This document shows positions 4,656 through 10,490 of a DNA stretch of 12,898 nt, one piece after another. Source of the DNA: Patescibacteria group bacterium (GTDB taxonomy: Bacteria > Patescibacteriota > Minisyncoccia > Phycocordibacterales > XYD1-FULL-46-19). The notes below the pieces were generated by a model. The model ran no database searches, was not told the origin of the DNA, and worked only from the letters and a program-made list of their open reading frames with translations. A program made the translations under genes and the position numbers. The stretch's first letter is position 1, and every line of letters starts with the position of its first letter. The DNA lies in the NCBI GenBank assembly GCA_030916795.1, contig JAUPVZ010000033.1:1-12898 (forward strand), given 5' to 3'.

Positions 4656-5035
4656 TGGTGGAGATGGGCGGAATCGAACCGCCGTGCAATAGGGAAGCTT
4701 AGGTGTATCTACGTTCATAGAGCGCTTAAAGTTGGTCGGTGGTATGAGTATAAAGCGAACAAAATCTCATATCACCCAAGCTTCTATGTCTCAAGTAACA
4801 AACGAAGCGGTAAGTTACTCCAGTCTGACGGTTATGATACTTCGTCTACTTAGTCAGGCAGAAAGTAGGGAAGCACCGGCCATTACGCTAAAGCGAAAGC
4901 CGGAGTGAAGTACGGTGAAGCCACCGCACCTGTGCTGTTTTTTGCACTTGTGTTTTGTTTGCGTGATTTACGAGGCAACAAACATCCTCGGAACGCACAG
5001 CTAAACAGCGTCTACTGTCTAGGCCGATCATCCCC
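4656..5035 (-). ncRNA. ssrA: transfer-messenger RNA (tmRNA)
   Basis: 380 nt. The 5' end GGGGATG (5035-5029) pairs with CATCTCC before A-CCA at the 3' end (4656), so CCA is encoded. The T arm is canonical: GGCGG-TTCGATT-CCGCC. Pseudoknot 1 can be traced: CGAGG/CCTCG helix interlocked with TGTTTG/CAAACA. About 10 nt downstream is a resume codon GCA (4945-4943) opening the tag AKNSTGAVASPYFTPAFALA, then TAA. tmRNA with SmpB frees stalled ribosomes and marks the nascent chain for proteolysis. Downstream helices exist but were not assigned. The D-arm analogue (GGCCTAGACAG) departs from the common GGATTCGAC. It lies 46 nt after smpB. Confidence 0.95.
4883..4945 (-). CDS. tmRNA-encoded proteolysis tag, 20 residues
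   Basis: Reads from GCA (4945-4943) to TAA (4885-4883): AKNSTGAVASPYFTPAFALA. The frame was chosen because it ends in the hydrophobic A-L-A typical of degradation tags and because the resume codon falls about 10 nt after pseudoknot 1, as in E. coli. The competing GCA in CACGCAAACAAA, nearer the pseudoknot, falls inside the CAAACA helix strand and gives a non-tag-like Arg-rich end. The tag is about twice the usual length of roughly 10 residues. It is translated only after ribosome transfer and has no start codon of its own. Confidence 0.8.
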   Translation of the reverse strand, partial: AKNSTGAVASPYFTPAFALA

Positions 5036-7330: not shown

Positions 7331-9262
7331 ATGAAGAACAAGAGCCAAAAACCCAAAAAAGAGGGCAAAAATCGGCTACGGTGGGGTGCCTCGGGCCAGT
7401 TTGCAAGCCAAATCGTCTTGGCGCTATTTGTTTTAGTGATTTTGGTGATGGGATATTCTGCTTTGGTAGAAAAGAGAGAAAAGTCTGTCGAGATCCCGTT
7501 TTCTGAACTAGCTAACAAAATCGAGGTTGGCGAGGTAGAAAGTGTGACCGTTATTGGTGACAAGCTAGATGTTGCCTTGAAAGACAAGACAATCGTCAAA
7601 TCAAAAAAAGAGAGCGAGAGTTCGCTGTCTTCAGCCTTGCTTGATTATGGGGTAAAAAGTGACAAAATCTCGGCGGTAAAAATCGAGATTGGTAACAATA
7701 CCGGTTGGGGTTATTGGACCCTCACTTTGTTGCCATTTTTAATTCCCGTTTTATTCTTGGTTTTGTTTTTATGGATGATCTCGCGCCAGATGAAGGGGGC
7801 GTCGATGCAAGCTTTTACTTTTGGCCAGTCGCGAGCGCGGATTATTGATCCCAATGATAATAATCAAAAAGTTTTGTTTAAAGATGTAGCGGGCAACCGC
7901 GAAGCCAAAGAGGAACTTTTAGAAATTGTTGATTTTTTGAAAAATCCAAAAAAGTTTTTAGACATCGGAGCCCGAATCCCTAAAGGGGTACTCTTGATGG
8001 GTGCACCAGGTACAGGTAAAACTTTGCTCGCGCGGGCGGTGGCCGGCGAAGCCCATGTGCCATTTTTTTATCTTTCGGGGTCGGAATTTGTGGAGATGTT
8101 TGTGGGGGTAGGGGCATCACGAGTACGAGATTTGTTTAAACTTGCCAAAAATGCCGCGCCGGCCATTATTTTTATTGATGAAATAGATGCGATTGGCCGC
8201 CACCGCGGGTCGGGGATGGGTGGTGGCAATGATGAACGGGAACAAACTCTGAACCAAATTTTGGTTGAGATGGATGGTTTTGAACCTAATGAAAAACTTA
8301 TTGTGATGGCGGCTACCAACCGGCCCGATGTTCTAGACAAAGCACTGCTTCGCCCGGGGCGTTTTGACCGACGCGTCTTGCTCGATGCCCCAGATATCAA
8401 TGATCGAGAGGCCATCTTGAAAATCCATGCCACCAAAAAGCCGTTGGCCGAAGATGTAAATATGCGAGTCATTGCCCAACGTACCCCTGGTTTTTCGGGG
8501 GCTGATTTGGCCAACCTGATGAACGAAGCCGCTATCTTGGCGGCCCGCGAGGACCGCAAAACTATTGCTCAGTATGACTTAATCCGTAGTGTCGAAAAGG
8601 TGATGCTGGGGCCCGAGCGAAAGAGTCATATTTTGTCAGAGAAAGAAAAAGAAATAACGGCCTATCATGAAATTGGTCATGCACTTATTTCCTCGGTTTT
8701 GCCTCATGCTGATCCGGTGCATAAAGTGTCAATTATTTCTCGGGGGCATGCTGCTGGTTATACTTTGAAGCTGCCGATTGAAGACAAAAAACTTAATTCA
8801 AAAAATGAATTTCTCGATGATATTGCCGTTTCTTTGGGTGGCTATGCGGTTGAGGAAATGATTTTTGGTGATATTACCACTGGCGCGTCGAATGATATTC
8901 AGGTGGCGACTTCGCTCGCTCGGGCCATGGTGACTCGCTATGGTATGAGTGACAAAGTTGGTCCAATCGACTTTGGCACCAGCACCGTGTCCCATATTGG
9001 CGAGATGGCTTTATCAGAAAAGAATGCTTCCGAAGCCACCTGGGCAGTAATAGATGAAGAAGTATCGATAATTATGAAAAAAGCTTTAGAGCGTGCCCGT
9101 GAAGTTTTGACTACTCACCGTATGGCCCTCGACACTTTGTCTAAAGAGCTGATGCGCACCGAGACCCTAGAGCGAGCCGAATTTGAGGTTTTACTAAAGG
9201 CGAGCGGTATTGAACCCAAGGTGGACAAACGGATCGCGGAGGAGGTGCTAGTTGGAAAATAA
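7331..9262 (+). CDS. ftsH: ATP-dependent zinc metalloprotease FtsH
   Basis: 643 residues, standard length. Basic cytoplasmic N-terminus, TM1 at about 26-46, a periplasm-side domain (about 47-128), TM2 at about 130-150. AAA+ domain: Walker A GAPGTGKT (224-231), pore loop MFVGVGA (256-262), Walker B IIFIDE (279-284), second region of homology around [21 protein letters not shown] (328-348). Peptidase: HEIGH (446-450) and the third Zn ligand D522 in TTGASNDIQ. FtsH is a membrane hexamer that degrades misfolded membrane proteins and tagged substrates, including SsrA-tagged ones in other bacteria. The common motif is HEAGH; here Ala is Ile, with all metal ligands kept. The C-terminal tail after the peptidase domain (about 580-643) is charged and helical. 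It is followed by a terminator and truB. Confidence 0.98.
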
Positions 9263-9271
9263 TTTTGCTCC

Positions 9272-9308
9272 ACCCCGCAAGTAGTTTTTAAAACTACTTG
9301 CGGGGTTT
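9272..9308 (+). terminator. hairpin between ftsH and truB
   Basis: Perfect 17-bp stem ACCCCGCAAGTAGTTTT (9272-9288)/AAAACTACTTGCGGGGT (9290-9306) around a single T. Only TTT follows before CG, so termination may be partial. Confidence 0.7.
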
Positions 9309-9320: not shown

Positions 9321-10121
9321 ATGGGCATCTTCAATATTTACAAAACTGCCGGGCTCACTCCGCTTGAGGCGCTGGAAAAGTTGCGGGTAATAAAACCGGA
9401 ATTAATAGCGACTAAAGCCGTCGATGACGGCTCGCCCCTAAGCGCCAAAGCGCCGGGCGAGCCATTAATAGCTTTAGCCGGCGCCGCCACGGCGCTTAGG
9501 GAAAAAATGACTTATGCGGGGCGGCTAGACCCGCTGGCGGAAGGGGTGATGCTCATTTTAAGCGGGGAGGATATCGGGCGGAAAGATGAGTTTTTGAATT
9601 TGTCTAAAACCTATGAAGTCGAGGTTTTGTTTGGAGCAGGTACCGATACTGGTGATGTTCTGGGGTTGGTGACCGAGCTTGGGCCGGCGGACTTGAATAT
9701 TGAAGAAATAAAAACAGCTAGCGCCCGCCTGGTGGGCCGACAATTGCAAACTGCCCCGCGCTACTCGGCGCCCGGCATCGATGGTAAAGAATTTGCCAAA
9801 GAAGTAGAAGTTTACACGGTTGAAGTTGGTGATCTAACCAAAATTTTAGCCTACGATTTACTGGTTGGTATTGAAAAAAGAGTAGGGGAGATAAACGGTG
9901 ATTTTCGCCAAGCGAAAATCACCGACTGTTGGCAAAAGTATTTAGCCAATAGTAACCAAACTTTTTCAGTTATTAAACTCACAATCTCGGCTTCATCTGG
10001 TACTTATATGCGGGTCTTGGCCGAAGAACTAGGTCGGGTCTTACGTGTGCCAGCGCTGGCTTACAAAATTAAGCGTACAAAAGTGGGAGAGTATACAATT
10101 GCAGATTCGCTTGTCTTGTAA
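9321..10121 (+). CDS. truB: tRNA pseudouridine(55) synthase TruB, with two insertions
   Basis: 266 residues. The start is fixed by the family opening MGIFNIYKTAGLT. The catalytic Asp is in TYAGRLDPLAEGVM (D70). KTYEVEVLFGAGTDTGDVLG, TAPRYSAPGIDGKEFAKE, SGTYMRVLAEELG and a final VGEYTIADSL follow in family order. TruB makes pseudouridine 55 in the T loop of tRNAs. Compared with E. coli TruB it has about 25 extra residues between the first helix and the catalytic motif (about 29-56), and a second extra loop (about 190-215, KRVGEINGDFRQAKITDCWQ) before the SSGTYMR strand. Both extra segments coincide with DNA inverted repeats (9401-9501 and 9896-9924). The catalytic core looks intact. No SD is seen. 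Confidence 0.93.
   Translation: MGIFNIYKTAGLTPLEALEKLRVIKPELIATKAVDDGSPLSAKAPGEPLIALAGAATALREKMTYAGRLDPLAEGVMLILSGEDIGRKDEFLNLSKTYEVEVLFGAGTDTGDVLGLVTELGPADLNIEEIKTASARLVGRQLQTAPRYSAPGIDGKEFAKEVEVYTVEVGDLTKILAYDLLVGIEKRVGEINGDFRQAKITDCWQKYLANSNQTFSVIKLTISASSGTYMRVLAEELGRVLRVPALAYKIKRTKVGEYTIADSLVL
9401..9501. repeat. nested inverted repeats inside truB, flanked by a 9-bp direct repeat
   Basis: ATTAATAGC occurs at 9401-9409 and 9464-9472, exactly 63 nt (21 codons) apart. Between and just beyond are GCCGTC-GAT-GACGGC (9417-9431), GGCTCGCCC (9429-9437)/GGGCGAGCC (9455-9463), CCCTAAGCGCC (9436-9446)/GGCGCTTAGGG (9491-9501), and GCGCCG-CCA-CGGCGC (9481-9495). The whole stays in frame. Confidence 0.75.
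9896..9924. repeat. 13-bp perfect palindrome inside truB
   Basis: CGGTGATTTTCGC (9896-9908), loop CAA, GCGAAAATCACCG (9912-9924), encoding NGDFRQAKIT. It falls in the second extra loop of TruB relative to E. coli. Confidence 0.8.
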
Positions 10122-10144
10122 CTCGGCCCACTTTCTCTTATAGT
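10116..10144 (+). promoter_or_regulatory. promoter aimed at the disrupted tRNA copy
   Basis: TTGTAA (10116-10121, overlapping the truB stop), 17-bp spacer, TATAGT (10139-10144). The expected start is near 10151, about 6 nt before the tRNA-like sequence at 10157. Confidence 0.55.
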
Positions 10145-10156
10145 ATCAATGTGTTT

Positions 10157-10235
10157 CCGCCCTTAGCTCCCTAGGCCGACCGGGCTAGGCAGTTGGTTAC
10201 CTGCCCACCGGCAGGCGGGGAGCACAGAGCTTGTA
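10157..10235 (+). pseudogene. tRNA-Ile-like 5' part split by two palindromic insertions
   Basis: Bases 10157-10169 equal positions 1-13 of the intact tRNA at 10285 (CCGCCCTTAGCTC). Then comes CCTAGGCCGACCGGGCTAGG plus C, then the D loop AGTTGGTTA (10191-10199), then CCTGCCCACCGGCAGGCGGG (10200-10219), then GAGCACAGAGCTT (10220-10232), identical to the intact tRNA. After GTA the similarity stops, so the anticodon stem 3' strand, T arm and acceptor 3' strand are missing. Both inserts are palindromic and sit exactly at the junctions between D stem and D loop. A non-functional copy is most likely, though it lies just behind a good promoter. Confidence 0.75.
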
Positions 10236-10253: not shown

Positions 10254-10384
10254 AGTAAATAAATATCTTTGAAAATCCTAGGGTCCGCCCTTAGCTCAGT
10301 TGGTTAGAGCACAGAGCTTATACCTCTGGGGTCCTTGGTTCAAATCCAAGAGGGCGGACCGTGGGATTTTCTTATTTATTTACT
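10254..10384. repeat. long leader/trailer inverted repeat around tRNA-Ile
   Basis: AGTAAATAAATA (10254-10265) pairs with 10373-10384, GAAAATCC (10271-10278) with GGATTTTC (10364-10371), and GGT (10282-10284) extends the acceptor stem with ACC (10358-10360). The precursor could form one long rod with the tRNA at its tip, which could serve processing or termination. Confidence 0.65.
10285..10358 (+). tRNA. tRNA-Ile (anticodon UAU)
   Basis: 74 nt, complete cloverleaf. Acceptor CCGCCCT/AGGGCGG (7 perfect pairs), D stem GCTC/GAGC, anticodon stem CAGAG/CTCTG with loop CTTATAC, variable loop GGGTC, T stem CTTGG/CCAAG with loop TTCAAAT, discriminator A. The anticodon TAT (10319-10321) reads AUA. CCA is not encoded (CCG follows). 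Most bacteria read AUA with a CAU tRNA modified by TilS, so UAU is a minority solution. The Ile identity features A73, C4-G69 and U12-A23 are present; C1-G72 and C38 are atypical for Ile. It lies 50 nt after the disrupted copy and points toward the surface-protein genes. Confidence 0.88.
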
Positions 10385-10490
10385 TATCCCGCGAGCAAAC
10401 CTGTTATATCTATGCATCGCCTTATTTTTCTTTTATACTGCAGTTTAGATTAATCTTAGTTTTATTTAATTTTTTTAGTTTATTTTAATT

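Follow-up and report, generated by a model that had tools for sequence, protein, structure and literature searches.

Hairpin-broken copy of a tRNA-Ile(UAU) gene

How does an intact tRNA gene come to lie directly behind the front half of a second copy, itself interrupted by hairpins at both borders of its D-loop? The question is raised by one whole contig of 12,898 nt (hereafter the window) from a genome of 461,735 bases in 59 contigs (80 % complete). The answer that we favour, with a probability of roughly 0.6, is that the locus belongs, as a form without an ORF, to a family of tRNA-gene elements that leave the old half-gene stranded and provide a whole tRNA. The features of the window on which the argument draws are as follows.

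4656–5035, reverse strand: tmRNA gene (ARAGORN, Rfam)
9321–10121, forward strand: putative truB-like ORF (from reading the ORF), the upstream neighbour that anchors the empty-site comparison
10116–10144, forward strand: promoter-like site TTGTAA-17-TATAGT (motif scan), conserved in the same-genus genome G001 before its intact tRNA
10157–10169, forward strand: stub piece 1, CCGCCCTTAGCTC, 13 nt exact; tRNA nt 1–13, 5′ strands of acceptor and D-stem
10170–10190, forward strand: hairpin insert 1, 20 nt plus C, an imperfect hairpin
10191–10199, forward strand: stub piece 2, AGTTGGTTA, 9 nt exact; D-loop
10200–10219, forward strand: hairpin insert 2, 16 nt forming a 6-bp hairpin and then CGGG; belongs to the dispersed CCTGCC palindrome family
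10220–10235, forward strand: stub piece 3, GAGCACAGAGCTT, 13 nt exact (10220–10232), continuing to 10235 with one mismatch; tRNA nt 23–38, D-stem 3′ strand into the anticodon loop
10236–10284, forward strand: left spacer of 49 nt between stub and tRNA, with inverted-repeat arm
10285–10360, forward strand: intact tRNA-Ile(UAU) (ARAGORN, Rfam)
10361–10408, forward strand: right spacer with inverted-repeat arm, ending TTATA
10256–10291/10351–10386 and 10248–10265/10373–10390: inverted-repeat arms around the intact tRNA

Measured against the intact tRNA-Ile(UAU), the stretch 10157–10235 corresponds to tRNA nt 1–38, and the three exact pieces of 13, 9 and 13 nt given in a preliminary description were recovered, as were the positions of the inserts at both D-stem/D-loop borders, the first between GCTC and AGTTGGTTA and the second between AGTTGGTTA and GAGC. 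That description had called the inserts two different 20-nt palindromes; both are hairpins, the lengths and symmetry requiring correction as listed above, and each folds alone in a moderately unusual way (z −2.2 and −1.7). The stub alignment scored 51.2 against a best of 2.6 among 30 shuffles, so the copy is more than chance; nor is it the product of random decay, an origin that the preliminary description had also dismissed. An uninterrupted state exists in G001. Stubs built in the same way are present in other genomes, and this speaks against an artefact of assembly.

Within the window, Rfam at gathering scores recognized tRNA and tmRNA only. There was no intron family at gathering score, such as a group I or II core that would make the insert a self-splicing tRNA intron, and no match to a T-box or other tRNA-sensing leader. 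The ORF list contained no frame in the 49-nt gap that separates stub from tRNA. The outer-half scan recognized no outer 3′ half beyond the right spacer. Integration at a tRNA 3′ end was considered and rejected, as the piece stranded in the window is a 5′ half, although 3′ duplications do exist at other loci. Further upstream, a perfect 17-bp inverted repeat with a 1-nt loop (9272–9306) follows a large ORF (7331–9262) and is probably a terminator.

The empty site in a related genome

In G001, truB and the same promoter region are followed by an uninterrupted tRNA-Ile(UAU), so that empty (G001) and filled (window) alleles are seen at one site. Window positions 9841–10169 are 83.6 % identical to G001 over 330 nt, and since this identity runs up to the end of stub piece 1, the stub represents the front part of the ancestral gene. 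The promoter motif is weak alone (2 found against 1.1 expected); over 10111–10169, however, the window is 97 % identical to the G001 sequence that leads up to its intact tRNA and enters it, and 10116–10144 is probably the original tRNA-Ile promoter. It ends 12 nt before the copy, not the 6 nt first reported.

On the favoured reading, the stub is what remains of the host's own gene, a dead 5′ half that has kept its original promoter, and the element joined this gene at the anticodon. The whole tRNA-Ile(UAU) that now sits at the tip of an inverted repeat would have come in with the element or been rebuilt by it, and is probably transcribed from the old promoter through the stub. The T-arm of G001's own tRNA differs from that of the intact tRNA in the window, which we count against a homing reading as regards the origin of the 3′ half.

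The intact tRNA is identical at 74 of 76 positions to the inner tRNA of a nested locus in another family (G055), and with short flanks it is 87 % identical over 111 nt to the nested locus L080, also of another family; the tRNA of G001 was absent from its best 15 matches. Transfer from elsewhere is suggested, not proven, because the window tRNA is equally close (74/76) to that of the non-nested L133. A single exact pattern, searched against viral contigs as a possible carrier, gave 0 matches.

Nested tRNA-Ile(UAU) loci in relatives

Relatives of this genome carry an intact tRNA-Ile(UAU) inside an outer tRNA-Ile that is split at the anticodon. An outer half was found on at least one side in 16 of 118 loci, a set that includes 80 loci chosen from among the matches listed, and in 14 of 116 when L038 and L077, noticed as double matches before fetching, are left out. 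A 5′ half ending in the anticodon lay upstream in 13/118 loci and a 3′ half starting there lay downstream in 11/115, compared with 2/2360 and 0/2300 for shuffled flanks and none in either direction for swapped reverse-complement flanks. At a further locus (L009) a 3′ half is also visible by eye. A pattern scan of named genomes gave five nested matches, in two Ca. Nomurabacteria (GW2011_GWC2_42_20 and RIFCSPLOWO2_01_FULL_42_20), two Paceibacterota and one bacterium MAG; loci L171–L175, found via the nesting pattern, stand outside the 118. In the first of these genomes (L171, about 1921–2375), three tRNA-Ile copies appear by eye to be nested in one another, with a palindrome in the T-loop of the outermost 3′ half.

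A rival origin would be a tandem duplication in which the upstream copy decayed and was entered by chance by selfish palindromes of the REP or Rickettsia type, no homing element being involved. The nearly identical outer and inner tRNAs of L033, L034 and L063 would suit such a history, whereas a single tandem duplication would not leave outer halves on both sides, as seen in 8 loci.

When the 11 loci with both outer halves were read by hand, the halves paired in 64/77 acceptor, 43/44 D, 53/55 anticodon and 55/55 T positions; halves exchanged between genomes paired worse (acceptor 60 %, anticodon 69 %). In 3 of the 9 loci where this was compared, however, the inner 3′ strand was the better partner for the outer 5′ acceptor strand. 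That the outer tRNA still works was rejected, since despite the pairing of most stems this last result, the inserts and the lost halves speak against it; the middle tRNA of L171 and L033 are excepted.

In the clear nested cases the anticodon-loop TATA flanks the insert on both sides and the spacers are inverted repeats. These features would also fit two separate systems, in which a MITE-like hairpin element carrying a whole tRNA enters the TATA of the tRNA-Ile(UAU) anticodon loop, as in the window, and is distinct from the GIY-YIG elements described below. Palindromic units without a tRNA, with similar ends, occur elsewhere in 4/12 genomes searched, and the nested spacers measured, at most 191 nt, are too short for a GIY-YIG gene. 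Against this, no mover is known for a MITE-like kind: Y1 (RAYT) transposase (PF01797) occurs in 41/61 genomes, none being found in the 80 % complete source genome (G000), and it is an unlikely mover, its presence in 6/9 nested and 35/52 other genomes revealing no link.

Two further observations concern tRNAs and tRNA-linked inserts. The inner tRNAs of L038 and L118 encode CCA, most others seen doing without, and may have a foreign source. A second kind of tRNA-linked insert, in which the T-arm and acceptor 3′ end are repeated 100–300 nt downstream of an intact tRNA with a reverse T-arm between, was seen in L012, L014, L025, L030, L044, L046, L052 and others, and in the source genome near tRNA-Tyr (L007).

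GIY-YIG genes between stubs and intact tRNAs

At four loci (L258, L220, L211 and L242) the space between stub and intact tRNA holds an ORF of about 80 codons, and Pfam assigned all four to GIY-YIG. A protein search that disregarded palindromes found GIY-YIG in 50/61 genomes. Of 30 such loci fetched in the order, 13 had an intact tRNA within 300 nt, and in 12 of these 13 a 5′ tRNA stub broken by a hairpin-like insert could be read, L292 being the locus with no stub found. The stub alignment exceeded the best of 30 shuffles in 10 of the 11 GIY-YIG loci tested, with L289 failing. Hairpin-broken stubs were also present at L275 and L281, where no intact tRNA was called. At the other 15 of the 30, about half, no stub was seen and no intact tRNA lay within 300 nt, which weighs against the favoured explanation. 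Many of these stub-less, tRNA-less genes lie between inverted repeats, either of the CCCGTTAGAG..CTCTAACGGG type at gene starts or terminator-like; by eye, the gene sits in a hairpin loop at the tRNA-less loci L270, L273, L278, L279, L286 and L293 and at L274, L283, L288 and L295.

The association extends to a sample from other orders of the phylum, in which an intact tRNA started ≤200 nt downstream of 18/29 GIY-YIG loci, compared with 7/1276 control points. Of these 18 loci, 13 had a stub that scored higher than any of 50 shuffles; the insert can be read as one or two hairpins in 10 of the 13, and at L314, L320 and L326 one is visible by eye at the anticodon, T-loop or D-stem. Five loci did not rise above shuffles (L300, L303, L317, L321 and L322), the first two being stub-like by eye. 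This frequency of GIY-YIG genes between stub and tRNA, far above control, and the presence of unrelated hairpins in the stubs of many isotypes are hard to reconcile with the tandem duplication set out above.

Across these stubs the insert sequences differ while form and place are common (acceptor/D border, D-arm, anticodon loop or T-loop). Hairpin-broken stubs thus mark both kinds of locus, and L269, a GIY-YIG locus at tRNA-Asn, repeats the double insert of the window, with two different inserts around the D-loop; by eye, L298 and L300 join a GIY-YIG gene with a 3′ half downstream. These findings weigh against two separate systems, an explanation that we regard as rather unlikely.

A GIY-YIG unit also occurs in the source genome itself, at tRNA-Ser(UGA), where the anticodon loop of the stub contains a hairpin; this unit is shared with G001, so the two do not count as independent. 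The window holds no GIY-YIG gene, although related loci encode one, and since there is no ORF between its stub and tRNA it can be at most an ORF-less derivative.

The full form of the proposed family of tRNA-gene elements would accordingly be a small GIY-YIG gene between a hairpin-broken 5′ stub and an intact tRNA, in other orders as well. The endonuclease presumably cuts tRNA genes that are free of the element, and repair of the break would copy the element in (homing), the tRNA sequence that it carries sparing the host. We infer the cutting and homing, the mobility and expression of the element, and the riding of ORF-less forms with help in trans, from this anatomy and from known homing endonucleases.

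Hairpin inserts and the CCTGCC palindrome

D-arm inserts in outer 5′ halves were found in the window (two), in G053, G055 and G059 and at L175, and such hairpins are a recurrent mark of these stubs; the insert of G059 (L047) is not a strong hairpin, and the L175 stub alignment is barely above shuffles. A search for D-arm inserts in other AGCTCARTTGGTTA tRNAs was unproductive, the 5 matches in 197 genomes all being ordinary tRNAs by their matched strings.

The preliminary description had suggested searching the genome for the two palindromes. Insert 1 has no second copy in its own genome at up to 3 mismatches; the CCTGCC palindrome of insert 2 occurs there in four places, the window and three others. 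One of these (L006) is the D-arm of a tRNA-Cys stub, where the junction test is positive; the anticodon loop of this stub holds a further hairpin insert, of 36 nt, and the stub lies ~30 nt upstream of the intact tRNA-Cys. Another (L007) is, by eye, a T-arm-like repeat near tRNA-Tyr with a negative junction test, and the third (L005) is unrelated to tRNA. At ≤1 mismatch the palindrome is present in 50/197 genomes of the order, with up to 29 copies, the reversed pattern giving 0.

A target preference shared by palindromic elements, one of the two explanations first offered, is borne out. Sites at which the flanks read across the junction as tRNA numbered 14 of the 73 sampled in the order, or 13 without an artefact (L207, where the library tRNA itself contains the palindrome), compared with 1/2800 random 20-nt omissions. 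Two of the sites in tRNAs (L200 and L222) are 13-nt matches only (E 0.009), sites lying 25 nt or less from the end of a locus were excluded, and four listed places lie outside the 73-site set, one in a tRNA stub and three not. The isotypes concerned include Ser, Cys, Leu, Ala, Asn and Ile(GAU). A fixed target GGTTA was rejected, being exact only in the source genome, G053 and a non-tRNA site of G030.

The dispersal of the palindrome, mostly outside tRNAs (59/73 sites), is what a tandem duplication followed by chance insertion would lead one to expect. Selfish insertion may explain the CCTGCC family, but it does not account well for so many unrelated hairpins at shared positions, and on the evidence as a whole we judge the duplication unlikely.

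The palindrome also leaves traces in sequence data. At L220 and L211 it is in frame and gives PACRQAG/LPAGRQAG-like peptides that start longer GIY-YIG ORFs, which may distort protein predictions in such genomes. Two contigs of one genome (L230 and L231; G165:C8 and C9) end exactly at the palindrome, and the repeat seems to break assemblies.

The second explanation first offered was a deliberate structured RNA, and stub and hairpins could in principle be a selected decoy, leader or insulator for the downstream tRNA. The region has a stable fold (z −7.7), to which the inverted repeat flanking the intact tRNA contributes much, and the hairpins keep their form and place although their sequences vary. 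A decoy is not supported, given that the copy is the promoter-proximal half of the ancestral gene and that the window shows no Rfam family besides tRNA and tmRNA. What survives of the leader idea is that transcription from the old promoter would need to pass through the stub; in the folding test, native inserts compared with shuffled and absent ones at 15 loci gave no consistent benefit to the intact tRNA, L269 alone gaining clearly. The same result led us to reject an insulator that stops the stub mispairing with the intact tRNA, and selection for such an RNA appears very improbable.

For tRNA-gene elements, the hairpins may spoil the stub as a cutting target, may break up a direct repeat and so hinder recombinational deletion of the element, or may be selfish palindromes tolerated in stubs.

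Comparison with known systems

In fungal mitochondria, homing endonuclease genes form elements that carry a replacement gene part and strand the old part. The loci described here are alike in both respects and differ in that the known fungal cases concern protein genes and their 3′ ends and are not known to have stub hairpins. The nearest described case is T4 SegB, a free-standing GIY-YIG homing endonuclease gene between tRNA-Arg and tRNA-Ile; in the available part of the source (PMC2988022), in which several free-standing GIY-YIG genes are described as hairpin-regulated, it is similarly a GIY-YIG gene among tRNA genes, but appears without a hairpin-broken stub and whole tRNA copy, whereas the element of the window is ORF-less and cutting here is inferred. 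Insertions in CPR rRNA genes involve the same bacteria and likewise include GIY-YIG genes in inserts matching neither group I nor group II introns, mostly at the top or base of stem-loops (PMC11270868); their target is rRNA, and in the accessible portion of that article the word tRNA is absent and no stub with a whole copy is described. REPs and Rickettsia palindromic elements are also short dispersed palindromes that can sit inside genes, according to the excerpts available (PMC3733652, PMC3767692), whereas here many unrelated hairpins share places in tRNA stubs. A further article, as far as its available text extends, names GIY-YIG once, as a transferred gene (PMC12455944). Our literature search, which had most subscription journals outside its scope, returned no article that describes GIY-YIG genes together with tRNA stubs in bacteria.

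More broadly, and at a little under even odds, such elements may exist throughout the Patescibacteria. The loops of essential tRNA genes would be invaded by a GIY-YIG nuclease, or by a derivative that has no nuclease and relies on it in trans; the invader would supply a whole tRNA and leave stubs in whose loops hairpins block re-cutting or loss, and repeated invasion would build tRNA-in-tRNA-in-tRNA nests, with essential tRNA genes replaced over time.

In summary, our study points to tRNA genes as a target for many of the small GIY-YIG genes, which these bacteria commonly have (50/61 genomes). If the proposal is true, it shows how essential single-copy RNA genes can house a selfish element that does not splice, the element bringing with it the gene that it breaks. 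For annotators, hairpin-bearing tRNA stubs would be predictable leftovers, and tRNA genes in these bacteria may be replaced by incoming copies.
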